Of a stretch of 42,848 nucleotides of DNA, positions 35,828 to 42,206 are shown piece by piece. Under the pieces are notes generated by a model. That model was not told where the DNA came from and ran no database searches. It was given only the letters and a program-made list of their open reading frames with translations. How positions within the stretch are numbered: position 1 is the first letter of the stretch; each line of letters begins with the position of its first letter. Position numbers and translations under genes: made by a program. This DNA comes from Ignavibacteria bacterium GWC2_36_12 (GTDB taxonomy: Bacteria; Bacteroidota; Ignavibacteria; Ignavibacteriales; Ignavibacteriaceae), in the NCBI GenBank assembly GCA_001802795.1, contig MGZZ01000162.1:2822-45669 (forward strand). Direction: 5' to 3'.

Positions 35828-38800
35828 CTATCTTATCCTGATTATCCGCTTTTTTACAAAATTAACTATCCCTTCTTTAGCTTGTCTTAAAGCTGCCGGA
35901 AGATCATCAAGAGTTGAATAGATAACAGGCACAATTACAAGAGTAAGAATTGTAGCAAAAGCAAGACCGAATATTACGGCTATTCCCATAGACTTCCAGA
36001 ATTCCTGACTTTCGCCACCCTCAGCAAATGAGAAGGTGTAAATATCAAATCCAAAACCGAAAGACAATGGTATTAATCCAAGTATTGTTGTAATAGCAGT
36101 TAGTGTAACAGGGCGGAATCTTCTTAATCCTGCAGCAACCACAGCCTCTCTTCTAGAAAGACCTCTTCGTCTGAGTACATTGGTATAATCAATAAGAACT
36201 ATATTATTATTAACAACAACACCAGCAAGGCTTATTACTCCAATACCGGTCATAACAATCCCGAACGGCATCTGAAACACAATTAAACCTATGAATACAC
36301 CAACCAGGGAAATAATTACTGCACTTATTATAATGAGCGGCTGGCTTAACGAGTTAAATTGTATTACAAGTATTAAAAAGATTAATAAACAGGCTATTAA
36401 AAAAGCTTTGGAAAGGAATGCCGCTGCTTTTTCCTGTTCCTCATCCTGCCCTGTAAATTCTATCGAATACCCCTGTGGCAATTGAAAATTACTTAATTCA
36501 GCTTTAACATTTTCAAGAACTTCATTAGCATTATAACCTTCCTCAGTATTTGCAGAAACAGTTATAACTCTTTTAAGATCTTTTCTTCTGATTGCACCAG
36601 GACCAGTCGATTTATCCACACTTGCTATACTGATTAAAGGGACTGAAAGAGTTTTACCCTTGTCATTATTATAAATAATTCTCAGGTTATCCAAAGCATT
36701 TATATCGGTTCTCTGATCTTTTTTTAAGCGGACAGTAATATCATATTCTTCCTCATCAACTCTGTACTTAGATGCTTCTGCACCATTAATAGCCGTACGA
36801 ACAGAATTGGCAATAAGACCTGTATTTAATCCATAAAGAGCAGCTTTTTCTCTGTCTATTTCAACCCGCAATTCAGGACGACCGGCATCAAAATCATCAT
36901 TCAGATCAACGATCCCCGGAATGTTTTCAATTTCCTGCTTTATTTTATTTGCAAGCAGTCCTAATAAGTGGTAATCTACACCACTGATTTCGATATTAAC
37001 CGGCAGACCTACGGGTGGACCACCCGATTCTTTAGCAATTGTAACCTCTGCTCCGGCAGTTTTTAATACTATATCCCTGATCTCATCAGTAGTAATGTGA
37101 GATGACTCTTCTCTATCGGCATAATCAATATACTGAATTGTAATTGTGCTTTTGTTCGGAGTCGATGAACCCGCATCGAAAGGATTATTAGATGAACCCA
37201 CAACAACAAGAACATCTTTTATATTTGAGCTGTTATATTTTTTTAATCTTTCCTCAATACTTTGAGCAATTCTATTAGACATTTCGATATTAGTACCGCT
37301 TGGACTTTCTATTGTTACAAAAATTCTTGGGGGCTGGGCATCAGGAAAAAATTCAACGCCGTATCCAAACAATCCGTAAACTTCTGTAATAAAGAATAAG
37401 AAGAAGAAAGTGCCCCAGATAACTTTTAGTTTGTTATTTGTGAATAACAAAATTATTCCTATACCGACCGCTAATGAAACAATAAGAGATATACCTGAAG
37501 GAATAGCTGCCAACGCAGGTACAATTAATATGAAGAATCCCAGTATTGCTGCAACACCAAACCAGTTTCTGCGGTTAATTTTTTGACCTGGCTCTCTGTG
37601 AGTACCTAAAGCAAACTGTAAAAGCCTTTCATAATTATATAATACTTTAGGAAGCATTACATCAACGAAGAAATAAGTTACTTTATTGAAAGGATGAATA
37701 ATCTTCTGAAACATCGTTTGCGGTTTATCATCAGGATGTTCTAATTTCATAAAGGCTGAAGCAATAACGGGATTTATAACAAGAGCAACAAATAAAGATG
37801 ATGAGAGAGTGATAATACATACCAAAGGTATATACAGCATAAATTCCCCAACGATTCCGGGCCAGAATAACATCGGGAAGAAGGCGGCTACTGTTGTTAA
37901 AGTTGAAGTTGTAACAGGCCATGCCACTTCGGCAGTTCCTAGTTTTGCAGCTTTAATTAATGAATTGCCTTCCTCAAGGAATTTGTAAATGTTTTCAATT
38001 ATAACTATTGCGTTATCTACAAGCATACCCAAAGCAAGTATTAAAGCATAAAGCACTACAAAGTTTAGCGTAACACCCAATGCCTGTAATACAAAGAAAG
38101 AAATAAGCATGCTTAATGGAATTGAAATTGCAACAAAGAGCGCATTCCTTACTCCGAGGAAAAAGAAGAGCACCATAACAACAAGTACAAGTCCTGAGAA
38201 TATATTATTCTCAAGCTCTCTCACGGTATCCTTAATTTCCTTAGATTGATCAGCGGTTACATATAGCTTGAGATCTGCGGGTAATTCTTTTTTCTTCACA
38301 TCAAGAATATTCTTTACTTTATCTGCAATCTCAATAATGTTTTTGCCGACACTTTTAGAAATACTAATTGAAACTGCTTCCTCTCCGTTTATCCTCGCAT
38401 AGCTGTTTTTTTCTTTAAAGCCATAGCTTACTTCAGCAACATCTTTTACATAAACAGGTTTGCCTTCTTTCAATTTAATAATTATATCTTCAATTATATA
38501 TGGCTTATCGAACTCGCCGGGAACACGAACGATAAAGCTCGATTTATTTACATCAATTGTACCGCCGGGAATAGTTTTGTTCTCATCATTGATCGAATTA
38601 ATTATATCATCGAACCTGACATTATAATGTGCAAGCTTGTTTAGGTCCACATCAACTTTAACTTCTCGCTCCATTCCCCCGCTTATCTTCGCTTCAAGAA
38701 CTCCATCTAACTTTTCAATCTCATCCTGAAGATCTTCTGCAATATCCTTAAGCTTAACAAGACCATACGGACCGGAAACATTCACAGTCATAATCGGGAA

Positions 38801-39205
38801 TTCAGAGAAGTTTATTTCAATTATTTCAGGTTCTTCTGCGTCAGGTGGTAGTTCAGTCTTAGCCTTATCAACTTTCTCTCTTACTTTCTGTAATGCATCA
38901 TCGATATTGTAACCGCTTTCAAACTCAACTCTTACTAAAGAATATCCTTCGAAAGAAGAAGATGTAATCTCCTTTACTTCACCTATAGTGTTTAATTCCT
39001 TTTCAAGCTTTTTAGTAACCAGACTTTCAACATCTTCCGGTGATACCCCAAAATAAGGAGTTGATACAATTACAAGTGGGATAGAAATATCGGGAGCAGC
39101 CTCTCTTGGTAAAGAAACGTACGCAGTAATACCAAGGATTGCTATAATTATAATAAGAATAAAAACGCTTGTCTTATTGTCTATAGAAACATCTGTTATT
39201 TTCAT
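35828..39205 (-). CDS. RND-family efflux pump, inner-membrane transporter
   Basis: An AcrB-type proton-driven exporter of 1125 residues. Signatures are LPREAAPDISIPLVIVSTPYFGVSPEDVE at the start of the porter domain, GMLVDNAIVIIENIYKF in TM4 (Asp397), and PVTLTAITTILGLIPL near the end. TM10 reads GVVVNNNIVLIDY, so the lysine found in AcrB is Asn here, as in several other RND clades. Between TM6 and the second porter loop (FFPDAQPPRIFV at about 619) there are three hydrophobic stretches (about 548-568, 571-588, 596-613) where one is expected. The ATG has AAAGGA upstream. The substrate is unknown; the adjacent lipoprotein and TolC genes complete the pump. Confidence 0.93.
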   Translation of the reverse strand: MKITDVSIDNKTSVFILIIIIAILGITAYVSLPREAAPDISIPLVIVSTPYFGVSPEDVESLVTKKLEKELNTIGEVKEITSSSFEGYSLVRVEFESGYNIDDALQKVREKVDKAKTELPPDAEEPEIIEINFSEFPIMTVNVSGPYGLVKLKDIAEDLQDEIEKLDGVLEAKISGGMEREVKVDVDLNKLAHYNVRFDDIINSINDENKTIPGGTIDVNKSSFIVRVPGEFDKPYIIEDIIIKLKEGKPVYVKDVAEVSYGFKEKNSYARINGEEAVSISISKSVGKNIIEIADKVKNILDVKKKELPADLKLYVTADQSKEIKDTVRELENNIFSGLVLVVMVLFFFLGVRNALFVAISIPLSMLISFFVLQALGVTLNFVVLYALILALGMLVDNAIVIIENIYKFLEEGNSLIKAAKLGTAEVAWPVTTSTLTTVAAFFPMLFWPGIVGEFMLYIPLVCIITLSSSLFVALVINPVIASAFMKLEHPDDKPQTMFQKIIHPFNKVTYFFVDVMLPKVLYNYERLLQFALGTHREPGQKINRRNWFGVAAILGFFILIVPALAAIPSGISLIVSLAVGIGIILLFTNNKLKVIWGTFFFLFFITEVYGLFGYGVEFFPDAQPPRIFVTIESPSGTNIEMSNRIAQSIEERLKKYNSSNIKDVLVVVGSSNNPFDAGSSTPNKSTITIQYIDYADREESSHITTDEIRDIVLKTAGAEVTIAKESGGPPVGLPVNIEISGVDYHLLGLLANKIKQEIENIPGIVDLNDDFDAGRPELRVEIDREKAALYGLNTGLIANSVRTAINGAEASKYRVDEEEYDITVRLKKDQRTDINALDNLRIIYNNDKGKTLSVPLISIASVDKSTGPGAIRRKDLKRVITVSANTEEGYNANEVLENVKAELSNFQLPQGYSIEFTGQDEEQEKAAAFLSKAFLIACLLIFLILVIQFNSLSQPLIIISAVIISLVGVFIGLIVFQMPFGIVMTGIGVISLAGVVVNNNIVLIDYTNVLRRRGLSRREAVVAAGLRRFRPVTLTAITTILGLIPLSFGFGFDIYTFSFAEGGESQEFWKSMGIAVIFGLAFATILTLVIVPVIYSTLDDLPAALRQAKEGIVNFVKKRIIRIR

Positions 39206-39217
39206 AATTTATCCTTT

Positions 39218-39236
39218 GGGTATGGGGTATAAGATG
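39218..39236. repeat. Left imperfect inverted repeat flanking the four-helix-bundle gene
   Basis: GGGTATGGGGTATAAGATG. The reverse complement of 39755-39776 reads GGTATAGGGGTATAATGGTATG. The two share GGTAT, GGGGTATAA and a final ATG, with small gaps. The arms bracket the inserted gene and its short leader and trailer. An additional CCTTCATA occurs at 39252-39259 and 39751-39758. Confidence 0.45.
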
Positions 39237-39269
39237 TAAAGATTTAACTATCCTTCATATTCTTAACAA

Positions 39270-39719
39270 TTAAGTTTTCTTTTTTACAAAATTTATATAT
39301 CCATTTAAAATAATCTTTGCTGATTCAATCAATTTTTCACCTTCATTTTTGATCTCGCTATGGATGTAACCAATATCATAACAACTTATAAGATGATCTT
39401 TGAGTTCAAATAATGAACCTCTCGAAATCCTGTAATACTGTATTCCTTCCTGGTAGTGAAATCGTCCGTACCCTTCTGAAATATTTGAGGTGATACTGAT
39501 AGCTGCTTTTCTTATTTGAATATCCAAATTAAACTTTTCTTCTTTTGGTAAGAGGGGTAATATTTTTTGATAAAAAAAAAGTTTAACATCACGACATTTA
39601 ATCCAAGCTTCTAATGAAGTGAAATCTCTATTTCCATTATAAAATTTATATGGTTCATTTACAGTTAAAGCATCATTTTCAGGATTTGAAGAAAGTGATT
39701 CCTTTTTATCATATATCAT
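39270..39719 (-). CDS. Four-helix-bundle protein (23S rRNA intervening-sequence protein family)
   Basis: A 149-residue protein. After a non-conserved 30-residue N-terminus comes the IVP-type four-helix bundle: FTSLEAWIKCRDVKLFFYQK, LPKEEKFNLDIQIRKAAISI, SNISEGYGR, YYRISRGSLFELKDHL, YDIGYIHSEI. The family was first seen encoded in intervening sequences of 23S rRNA genes and is scattered through genomes; its function is not established. It lies between the membrane-fusion and RND genes of an efflux operon, in the same orientation, with 66- and 64-base gaps. A pump role is unlikely and it reads as an insertion. The ATG is at 39717-39719. Confidence 0.88.
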   Translation of the reverse strand: MIYDKKESLSSNPENDALTVNEPYKFYNGNRDFTSLEAWIKCRDVKLFFYQKILPLLPKEEKFNLDIQIRKAAISITSNISEGYGRFHYQEGIQYYRISRGSLFELKDHLISCYDIGYIHSEIKNEGEKLIESAKIILNGYINFVKKKT

Positions 39720-39754
39720 TTTTTATCTCTCAATAAAATTGACCAAAACACCTT

Positions 39755-39776
39755 CATACCATTATACCCCTATACC
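39755..39776. repeat. Right imperfect inverted repeat flanking the four-helix-bundle gene
   Basis: CATACCATTATACCCCTATACC, the partner of 39218-39236 (see that entry). It is followed by a further TTATACC unit at 39778-39783, so the arm is part of a short TATACC-rich tract just before the 3' end of the membrane-fusion gene. Confidence 0.45.
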
Positions 39777-39785
39777 TTATACCTT

Positions 39786-40850
39786 CTATTCCAGTACTTT
39801 CACTTTTTCTCCATCAACAAGATTCTGAAAACCGACGAGAATAAGGTTTTCTCCTTCTTTCAGCCCTTCGGTTACGGCAGCTTTATTTTCATACCTGCTT
39901 TCAATCTTAACTACTCTCATTTTCGCAACTCCATTTTCTTCAACAAATACGATACTGCCAAGATCTGTTTTGCTCACAATATCTTCCGGTATTATGGCAA
40001 TTTTATTAAATCTTTCTTTCTCGATTTTTACAACAGCATTAAGCTCCGGCTTAATTTTCTTGTTTCTGTTATTTATAATCACTTCAACAGGAAACGTCCT
40101 GTTATCAATATTAATTGATGAACCTACATAGGATACTTTTTCATCGAAGGTTTCACCTTCAAGATCATTAAAAATTATTTTGACTCCGTCACCGGGATTA
40201 ACGACGTCTACATAATTTTCCGGCACGCCGGCTTCAACTTTTATTCTGTCAATATTTAATATAGAAATAATCGAAACTCCCGGTGCAGCAAACTCTCCTT
40301 CTTCAATATATTTCATATCAATGATCCCGGGAAAAGGAGCTTTTATAAAAGTCTTATCATACCTGCTTTTAATTAACTCATAATTTGCTTTGGCAGCGTC
40401 TCTCTGATATTTTGCTTCAAGATACTGAAGTTCACTTGTTACTTTTTCACTATAAACTTTTTCCTGTTTCTGAAAATTTACTTCAGCTAATTCATATTGT
40501 GCTTTAGTAGCATCAAGGTTTGCTTTCAAAACATCGTTCTCAATCGTTAATATTACATCCCCCTCTTTTACATACTCACCTTTATCTTTAACAAATTGTT
40601 TTATCCTGCCGCCTTCGTCTGAGGCTACATTAGCTCTTTGATATGCTTTTGCAACACCGATTAAAGTTATATAATTTACAAAAGGTTGAAGCTTTACCTT
40701 TTGAATTTCCACATATACAAACTGACCCGGTTCTTCTTTTTGCTTTTCATTACCACCTGTATCCGAACAGGAATAAAATAGGAAAACAAAAGTTACCAGT
40801 GTAAAAGAGATTACTACTTTATAAAATATATTTTTCATTTTAATTACCAT
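39786..40850 (-). CDS. RND efflux periplasmic adaptor (membrane-fusion lipoprotein)
   Basis: A 354-residue HlyD/AcrA-type adaptor. It has a hydrophobic leader with a lipobox ending FYSC (Cys28). The lipoyl-like half motifs are GRIKQFVKDKGEYVKEGDVIL and TFIKAPFPGIIDMKYIEEGEFAAPG, with the helical hairpin (about 110-165: ATKAQYELAEVNFQKQEKVY) between them. A beta-barrel domain follows, then a membrane-proximal domain ending in GLKEGENLILVGFQNLVDGEKV. It bridges the RND pump and the TolC channel. The AGGTGA ribosome-binding site overlaps the tolC stop codon. A second in-frame ATG four codons later is a possible alternative start. Confidence 0.92.
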   Translation of the reverse strand: MVIKMKNIFYKVVISFTLVTFVFLFYSCSDTGGNEKQKEEPGQFVYVEIQKVKLQPFVNYITLIGVAKAYQRANVASDEGGRIKQFVKDKGEYVKEGDVILTIENDVLKANLDATKAQYELAEVNFQKQEKVYSEKVTSELQYLEAKYQRDAAKANYELIKSRYDKTFIKAPFPGIIDMKYIEEGEFAAPGVSIISILNIDRIKVEAGVPENYVDVVNPGDGVKIIFNDLEGETFDEKVSYVGSSINIDNRTFPVEVIINNRNKKIKPELNAVVKIEKERFNKIAIIPEDIVSKTDLGSIVFVEENGVAKMRVVKIESRYENKAAVTEGLKEGENLILVGFQNLVDGEKVKVLE

Positions 40851-40862
40851 TTAATTTTAAAC

Positions 40863-42206
40863 TCACCTTGTGTTCGATAATTCTATTTCATTAGCTAAAA
40901 GCTGGTCTAACTGGGCATGAAGAATATAATAATCATAAATAGAATTGTAATAATTAACCTTTGCCCTCGTTAGAGAAACCATTGCATCTATTGTTTCTAA
41001 CTGGGTACCTACTCCGCTTGAATACCTCTTCTGCGATATATCATAAGCCAATTCCGCTTCTTCTATAGTTGCTTTATAAGAATCCAATTTCTTTTTTGCT
41101 TCATCAATAGAAAGAAAAACATCTTTTAGATTATTCTTAAGAAGTTTCACTGTTTTATCATATTCTTCTTTTGCTTTGTAAAAATCTACTCTTGCCTGCT
41201 CTACTTTAGATGTTGTCTGGAAACCGTCAAATATTGGAATTTTGAGATTAAGTCCTACGTAAACCGAGTTTTTATAACGCCAGTTATTAAACGATCTCGG
41301 ATCATTTTCCTGAGCCTGTGTTTGCCAGTTTCCGTTAAAATAAAGCTCGGGAAAATGCTTTGTAAACTGGTAAGAAATGGCATCATCCTGCAATTGCATT
41401 TGCAATCTGAGCTGAAGCAACGAATGATTTTTTTTCAACAATATTTGGTCTAATTCTTCCTCGCCGGACAGAGTAATTTCTTTAAGAGAAAGAGAATCGT
41501 TAATTACTAATTCGCTGGATAGATCAAGACCTGTTACAAACTTCAGCAGATTTTTTGCAAGCACCAAAGAGTTCTCGGAATGCTGTAATTCCGGAATTAA
41601 ATTTTTTACCTGAACTTTGGCACGCACATAATCATACTCAGGAGCTATTCCCGCTTTATATAAAGATTCTGTATTTCTAAGATTATCTTCAGCCAGCTTT
41701 AAATTCAATTTTGCAAGTTCCAGGGCTTCATTTGCAAACAGCACAGAATAATATGCCTTCTTAACATTAATAATAACTTCAGAAGTTGTGGCATCTACAA
41801 ATTTTTCCTGTATATCAGCATATGTTTCTGCAATTCTTACTGCAAGAAATACTGCACCAGTAAAAAGCGGCTGCTCAAGAGTAGCACCTACAGTCATAGT
41901 ATTTTCTGTTCCCGAAGGAAATGACCCGCTAAAAAAAGGAGTCTCAATAGATATTTCTCCTCTTTTAATAGCTCTGTTGTAGTTAACGAAACCTGATATC
42001 TTAGGAAAAACTGAAGAACCCCATGCTTCTGTAACCTGCTCATCAGCTTTTAGTTTATCCAGTTTAACAATTTTCAAATCGTGATTGTATTCCAGAGCAA
42101 GTTCAATACTTTTTGTTAGATCTAATTGCAAAGTATCATTTGTTTCTTCCTGAGCAAATAAACTTTGTAAAGAAACCGATAACACAAATAGCAGAATGAA
42201 TTTCAC
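40863..42206 (-). CDS. TolC-family outer-membrane efflux channel
   Basis: A 447-residue outer-membrane factor with a signal peptide (cleavage at LFA-Q, about residue 18). It has two OEP repeats, each of a strand pair and long helices: LTKSIELALEYNHDLKIVKLD with ISGFVNYNRAIKRG, and LKKNHSLLQLRLQMQLQDDAI with LYFNGNWQTQ. The IPIFDGFQTTSKVEQARVDF and SYKATIEEAELAYDISQKRYSSGVGTQLETIDA segments are typical. The start is GTG at 42204-42206, with AGGAAGG about ten bases upstream. It is the first structural gene after the regulator. Confidence 0.92.
   Translation of the reverse strand: MKFILLFVLSVSLQSLFAQEETNDTLQLDLTKSIELALEYNHDLKIVKLDKLKADEQVTEAWGSSVFPKISGFVNYNRAIKRGEISIETPFFSGSFPSGTENTMTVGATLEQPLFTGAVFLAVRIAETYADIQEKFVDATTSEVIINVKKAYYSVLFANEALELAKLNLKLAEDNLRNTESLYKAGIAPEYDYVRAKVQVKNLIPELQHSENSLVLAKNLLKFVTGLDLSSELVINDSLSLKEITLSGEEELDQILLKKNHSLLQLRLQMQLQDDAISYQFTKHFPELYFNGNWQTQAQENDPRSFNNWRYKNSVYVGLNLKIPIFDGFQTTSKVEQARVDFYKAKEEYDKTVKLLKNNLKDVFLSIDEAKKKLDSYKATIEEAELAYDISQKRYSSGVGTQLETIDAMVSLTRAKVNYYNSIYDYYILHAQLDQLLANEIELSNTR

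Follow-up and report, generated by a model that had tools for sequence, protein, structure and literature searches.

Between the adaptor and pump genes of an efflux operon of Ignavibacteria bacterium GWC2_36_12 lies a small gene of the IVP four-helix-bundle (4HB) family, flanked by short repeats. Does this gene belong to the operon, or did it arrive there, and in the latter case what are the repeats for? Decades after the IVP family was discovered, its function is, to our knowledge, still not agreed upon. The stretch that we analysed as a whole (the window) is 42,848 nt long, and its relevant features are the following.

The gene, its operon and its ends

39206..39785, minus strand: whole inserted interval, adaptor stop to pump start, 580 nt, recognised from orthologous operons with a short spacer; includes the short host spacer
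39270..39719, minus strand: IVP 4HB gene, 149 aa (PF05635 and TIGR02436 profiles, AlphaFold model, dN/dS)
39755..39783, minus strand: 5' array with four GGTAT(A/G) units at a spacing of 7-8 nt; the coding strand is G-rich here (sequence and pattern match)
39218..39233, minus strand: 3' array made up of two units in inverse orientation to those of the 5' array; the coding strand is C-rich here (sequence)
39782..39788, minus strand: left junction, adaptor stop codon (39786-39788) followed by AAGG, the start of the array (sequence)
35828..39205, minus strand: AcrB/ACR_tran pump gene of the interrupted host operon (profile match)
39786..40850, minus strand: HlyD-type adaptor gene of the interrupted host operon (profile match)
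40863-42206, minus strand: OEP gene (profile match)

Gene coordinates and profile matches bear out that the 4HB gene splits the adaptor from its pump; the element sits between these two genes and not inside an rRNA gene. The encoded protein matched PF05635 with E = 1.4e-24 (86.7 bits, curated cut-off 33.8) and TIGR02436 with E = 4.9e-22 (78.2 bits, curated cut-off 24). A preliminary description of this DNA had placed the gene in the family known from 23S rRNA intervening sequences (IVS); by profile the family is indeed the same, but the copies studied here reside in spacers between operon genes instead of in 23S rRNA. The AlphaFold model (pLDDT 88.5) matched PDB 2GSC (E = 4e-6), 2RLD and Avd in Foldseek, i.e., the four-helix fold of the solved members. 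Ser75, Asn79 and Glu105 were invariant across 30 4HB sequences, and dN/dS was 0.03-0.13 in 8 of 11 pairs, the non-saturated ones (0.13 for the window gene against L078): the 4HB protein is under purifying selection. Its gene is the sole ORF of at least 80 aa listed in the window element, where no known nuclease or transposase is encoded.

We searched 59 genomes and found the adaptor, at E <= 1e-40, in 16, the window genome among them. At the orthologous site in all 15 relatives, the pump gene starts after a short spacer (TAAGGAT begins several of these) and the 4HB gene is absent. Such a comparison with operons lacking the gene had been proposed in the preliminary description, and it identifies the gene as an insertion rather than a fixed operon member. 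An empty site at the nucleotide level is lacking for the window, because the two nearest genomes (G001 and G002, 68% and 78% complete) gave no match for the orthologous adaptor. The layout TAG-AAGG-[element]-AAAGG-ATAAATT-ATG implies that the simplest empty site has one AAGG. The recurrence of AAGG at the right junction (39213-39217 region) is a possible short target duplication or, equally in keeping with the letters, a possible array unit.

On the plus strand, the array at 39218-39233 reads GGGTATGGGGTATAAG and that at 39755-39783 reads CATACCATTATACCCCTATACCTTATACC; GGTAT and GGGGTATAA are common to both, in inverted orientation, and a GGTATA pattern match falls inside the 5' array (G000:C162:42584-42604). 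These shared letters had been described as imperfect inverted arms. They are present, but the window's own arms, taken alone, stay within chance (inverted score 12.0, rank 19 among 74 possible 3' partners). The arms become credible because the GGTATA unit recurs beside relatives of the window protein at other sites, and through the class statistics given below. Paired and inverted as supposed, they are arrays of a ~7-nt unit rather than classical terminal repeats. The direct repeat CCTTCATA likewise occurs twice (39252-39259 and 39751-39758), but each time on an array's inner flank, and it is therefore not a target-site duplication; it may be an inner array unit or a chance recurrence.

Arrays across the family

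From loci of relatives and public MAGs we took 105 HMM domains, of which 74 were kept after 31 (edge, partial or duplicate) had been dropped. The inverted match of a copy's own two flanks averaged 19.75, against 11.14 for random pairing of flanks, whose highest value in 5000 permutations was 12.52. The direct orientation also gave an excess (14.03 against 10.96; highest permutation 12.32), with 10 of the 74 copies beyond the control's 99th percentile, and therefore some copies repeat directly too. An inverted score of at least 16 was reached by 51 of the 74 4HB copies versus 1 of 26 ordinary window genes, for which the own mean (10.96) was not above the cross mean (11.33). In the window genome, where TIGR02436 gave 20 matches at E <= 0.01, the own 3' flank ranked first as inverted partner in 13 of 20 copies and first or second in 18; the exceptions were the window copy, whose own 3' flank ranked 4 of 20 by alignment, and the divergent L023 (rank 17).

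The strongest flank periodicity was at 7 nt (253 vs 76 ± 8 and 191 vs 23 ± 8), then at 8 nt, with harmonics at 14 and 21, and the matched arm had a median length of 40 nt, or five to six units. Across 51 elements, the coding strand was G-rich in the 5' arm in 84% and C-rich in the 3' arm in 82%. In 64 of 66 copies the 4HB gene read in the same direction as its upstream neighbour (8 of the 74 fell outside this count); the window baseline is 20 of 26 adjacent pairs.

Within the window genome the array letters varied by copy (by eye, TTCTACA, CATCAAC, ATGACTA, AGTCTCA, AATTCGA, CATGCAA and so on). Across 2,701 pairs of loci, in which the 5' flank of one was compared with the 3' flank of the other, arm similarity correlated with protein identity (r = 0.437, a value reached by none of 2000 permutations). 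We then set aside 55 pairs whose members came from one locus or had homologous neighbours. In the remainder, the cross-locus score averaged 10.3-10.8 in all bands under 60% identity, 17.1 (n = 78) for proteins 60-70% identical and 20.0 (n = 36) for those beyond 70%. Without the window's 15-member subfamily, the pairs above 60% were only 18, of which the 12 at 60-70% averaged 14.6 and the six above 70% averaged 19.0. At 14 loci in named Bacteroidota, Chlorobiota and KSB1 MAGs we found proteins 60-71% identical to the window protein; the genes of these relatives adjoin unrelated genes and have arms of GGTATA or GGGAATA type, some in direct orientation. L001 and L002 share arms and are saturated at silent sites, so that the common arms are either ancient or were gained on two occasions.

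Classical terminal repeats shared by the whole family are ruled out by these data, since the arms differ between subfamilies and a unit is common only above ~60% protein identity. In the preliminary description, a lack of the window's arms on other 4HB copies was to count against a mobile unit. Most copies do have arms of their own instead, and that argument is misleading because each subfamily has its own unit.

Arrays also occur apart from the gene. The pattern GGTATAN{1,3}GGTATA had 15 matches in the window genome, two gene-bearing copies included, versus 2 for a reversed-pattern control. This genome contains gene-less compact inverted GGTATA pairs (L213 and L227), a gene-less GGTATA mini whose arm order is reversed, C-rich first, relative to the host genes (L221, G000:C41:13389) and a GGTATA array at a contig end (L225); the L004 unit also forms solo arrays in it, and the L022 unit a mini. 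The solo array L228 lies just before a start codon, between fabH-like and fabD-like genes. A second motif scan yielded 31 matches versus 12 for its reversed-pattern control, hence only ~2.6-fold over control. We counted 39 noncoding arrays in 92.3 kb from six 4HB-rich genomes (shuffles 2.2) versus 2 in 91.7 kb from seven 4HB-less genomes (shuffles 2.6), in samples of 0.72 and 0.78 Mb from the two groups that consist mostly of contig starts in both and may be repeat-rich in drafts. Away from any 4HB or GxxExxY gene the counts were 32 and 2; the 32 were clustered, with 13 in locus L286, 4 in L268 and none in G046.

Turnover of sites and companion genes

The 59 genomes had 0-20 4HB copies each, with at least one in 51. 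G011 and G036, 93% identical over a common 4HB locus, have a single copy in common, of 4 and 3, respectively. Sites of 11 unshared elements from four genomes were sought in the sister genome; at all of the 10 recovered, the 4HB gene was absent from the sister, and seven of the sites were short or empty. The sister genome had a GxxExxY gene with its own arrays in place of the 4HB gene at the L117 site, gene-less GAAGGCTGAA and ACGGATTTCACGG arrays at the L112 site, and a 12.6-kb insert at the L121 site. An arm-like stretch was kept at some empty sites (the right arm at L173, GTTCTGAGGTTCCGAGG at L166), and such stretches, seen at several empty sites, could be a target or a scar. GTAATT stands at both ends of the filled site and once in the empty site at L132/L170, the one candidate target duplication among the sites compared, the others giving no clear picture. 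In the outgroup G045, consulted for polarising solo-arm sites, the L119 site was not found, the L132 site was found on one side only and the L114 site held a different gene-less array. Presence and absence at these other sites supports mobility of 4HB elements.

Several loci showed further peculiarities. The 12.6-kb insert of G011 (L212, G011:C1:609000-622100), at a place where the sister G036 has a 4HB element, contains large ORFs of 1093, 1640, 502 and 377 aa, with long inverted TATGAACTGTGATCTATAAG-type arrays on both sides; it appeared defence-like, by impression only. Downstream of the gene at L121 (G036), a ~72-nt unit with a AATGCAGT-type array occurs in about three repeats. At L042, L043, L045, L046 and L070, same-site 4HB genes were 54-79% identical in the listed pairs and their neighbours 80-96%, with arms unlike between genomes and matching within each; this divergence amounts to either very rapid change or in situ replacement. 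In several MAGs, elements of the window subfamily (L102, L103, L104, L105 and L108) seemingly occupy one spot, which by eye adjoins carA- and carB-like genes; neighbour homology was seen for L102, L103, L104 and L108.

No near-identical copies were seen within a genome: none of 203 pairs reached 95% identity (39 copies, 4 genomes). In the one-contig G003 no pair exceeded 53% (10 of its 20 copies compared); the other three genomes are draft MAGs, which can lose near-identical copies. In this respect the elements are unlike a bursting transposon, and the absence suggests that copies arrive from outside and that like may exclude like.

A spread driven by reverse transcriptase (RT), in the manner of diversity-generating retroelements (DGRs), was considered and ruled out: 4HB and RT copy numbers were uncorrelated over the 59 genomes (rho 0.015), and 7 of 13 genomes with at least 10 4HB copies were without RT. 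RVT_1 had no match at E <= 1e-5 in the window genome or in G003, despite the 20 4HB copies of the latter.

Copy numbers of 4HB and GxxExxY genes, by comparison, gave rho 0.52 over the 59 genomes and a presence table of 43/8/2/6 (Fisher p 0.0014), both uncorrected for kinship; eight 4HB-bearing genomes were without GxxExxY. The two flanks of GxxExxY genes matched in inverted orientation as well (own 18.1 vs cross 11.6; 28 usable of 30 loci). Around the GxxExxY (TIGR04256) genes L177-L206 and L167 we noted inverted ~9-nt arrays of CACAGAGAA and CGCAAAGA types.

Copies from cyanobacteria and related plasmids (15 loci chosen by hand from 11, 38 and 24 overlapping record matches) scored 21.7 for own and 12.6 for cross pairing, 11 of the 15 being at 16 or above. 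Arms of AGCAGGGG type were common to seven Nostocales relatives of L005 (L455-L461). L005 itself had no unit in common with its ~60% identical Nostoc relatives. On the Pseudanabaena plasmid pPg_01 (L463), a 4HB gene lies between cas6 and cas4 with long AAAGCT heptamer arrays alongside, which may be the reason why CRISPR surveys list the family. A cross-phylum likeness between L047 (TAGCTTTAAGCT) and L463 (TAGCTTTTAGC), perceived by eye only, scored 10.0-14.5 and was dropped for want of strong support.

What the protein may do, and related systems

On balance we favour the reading of a small mobile element, ~0.5-0.6 kb long, for which the 4HB gene supplies the specificity factor. The locus had been proposed to move as a small non-autonomous element; the insertion, the paired arms and presence or absence elsewhere agree with movement, but "non-autonomous" needs correcting: because array and protein are coupled, the gene is probably what confers specificity, and gene-less minis exist as well. 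The Avd-like protein, whose solved relative 2GSC is a pentamer, would bind its cognate array on DNA, perhaps with one array unit per subunit; an arm of five to six units would, at a guess, suit a five-subunit ring. DNA rather than RNA is the probable target because the arm mismatches (see below) show no RNA-pairing signature. Once bound, the protein would bring both element ends together and would mark them for insertion, either into operon spacers or next to array-like stretches that were already there; cutting and joining would presumably be supplied by an enzyme of the host or by a factor acting in trans. The 4HB gene would be read from the host operon and, for that reason, kept codirectional with it. 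That each genome has one copy per specificity suggests that like elements exclude each other. Speaking against this reading are the lack of near-identical copies within genomes, the old or twice-gained arms of L001 and L002, the want of a known nuclease or transposase in the element, target duplications that are unclear at all compared sites but one, the chance-level arms of the window copy and the mere 18 pairs behind the coupling outside the window's subfamily.

Other explanations have to be weighed against this one. The arms might pair in the transcript, as in an RNA-level IVS, so that RNase III excises the cassette from the operon mRNA and complementarity is kept for that purpose. The protein family is that of rRNA IVS, the gene is in sense orientation in 64 of 66 copies and, according to the available part of PMC4990558, RNase III cleaves a terminal stem of 28 bp in the Coxiella IVS. 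RNA pairing, however, should favour G.U over A.C mismatches, and the 51 elements had 101 of each type; this disfavours an RNA stem kept by selection. The direct-orientation excess in 10 of 74 copies and the arms being a repeated unit, not unique stems, also speak against excision, which we judge unlikely. We hold it just as unlikely that the protein is a regulator of translation or transcription acting at heptamer arrays genome-wide, its own arrays being autoregulatory. Some solo arrays do directly precede start codons (e.g., L228), and a similar role was proposed for TAACTGA heptamers (MacGregor 2015, PMC4679880, in the portion available); yet genes and arrays come and go among close relatives, the arrays are inverted around the gene, and an informal look at the insertion sites revealed no common host pathway.

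A slightly less probable idea is that the arrays are a passive by-product, made and homogenised by replication slippage and template switching at the inserted gene, with no role for the protein. Arm similarity within an element often exceeds that between orthologues, as homogenisation would give, and in many genomes repeats of 5-11 nt are most often heptamers, to go by the accessible part of PMC4679880. Against it, units are common to proteins >60% identical at unrelated sites, and arrays are rare in the sampled genomes without a 4HB gene. As for an ordinary fixed operon gene with an efflux-related role, codirectionality and purifying selection would be expected of it, but absence from 15 of 15 orthologous operons, and the unrelated genes beside relatives of the window protein, render it highly improbable.

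Going beyond the specificity-factor reading, we entertain more tentatively, as possible though on the less probable side, a new class of mobile elements in Bacteroidota, Cyanobacteria and others. A non-catalytic ring protein of Avd fold would read its own inverted heptamer word; words would diverge with the protein, like would exclude like, and other cargo (GxxExxY, perhaps the 12.6-kb island) would be carried. If true, this would account for many unexplained intergenic heptamer repeats and for the purpose of the IVP family. The coupling of a protein subfamily to a DNA word is a possible link to the intergenic heptamer repeats of several phyla, and it points to a class of small elements missed by annotation.

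Parts of this picture have precedents in the accessible portions of earlier papers. The 4HB family is known from rRNA IVS, and S23p of Xanthomonas was reported to be pentameric (PMC4990558); rRNA IVS have long been suspected to be mobile (PMC4990558; PMC11270868), rRNA insertions of CPR bacteria contain the family (PMC11270868), family members lie beside cas genes (PMC3936711; PMC10910872) and the family is a relative of Avd (PMC10053308). MacGregor (2015) described direct repeats of the TAACTGA heptamer in Beggiatoaceae, cyanobacteria and Bacteroidetes and suggested that a repeat-binding protein was possibly itself the mobile element (PMC4679880). What appears to be new here is the joining of 4HB genes with heptamer arrays, the IVP family in rRNA IVS and the heptamer repeats with their suggested mobile binding protein having been known separately; in the open-licence PMC literature, to which our search was confined (preprints being outside its scope), we found no description of 4HB genes bracketed by heptamer arrays.

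The TAACTGA repeats resemble our arrays in being intergenic heptamer runs, but they are direct repeats of one unit, and the available part of PMC4679880 makes no link to 4HB proteins. As arms of 4HB genes they were not supported: a 4HB gene occurred in 1 of 104 viral-contig stretches with TAACTGA arrays. The 23S and 16S rRNA IVS with an S23p/IVP gene are alike in protein family, in the gene lying within the insertion and, for Coxiella, in complementary ends; by contrast, the present elements occupy spacers of protein operons, have subfamily-specific ~7-nt arrays and show no sign of selection for RNA pairing. Avd of the DGRs (4DWL, 8UB7) has the same fold (Foldseek probability 1.00), but 4HB elements need no reverse transcriptase. 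In REPIN/RAYT systems, a protein goes with its own palindromic repeats and gene-less repeats populate the genome; protein-repeat pairing and gene-less repeats are found here too, albeit with 7-nt-array ends and no HUH transposase in the element. Ac/Ds and CACTA elements have subterminal repeat arrays, multiple short binding sites inverted at both ends, and encode a transposase; the inverted short-repeat arrays are shared with the window element, the transposase is not. Compared with insertion sequences and MITEs, the window element is likewise without a transposase and the family without terminal repeats common to all copies, but gene-less derivatives with the same ends are a feature of both (L213 and L227; L221 in reverse arm order).
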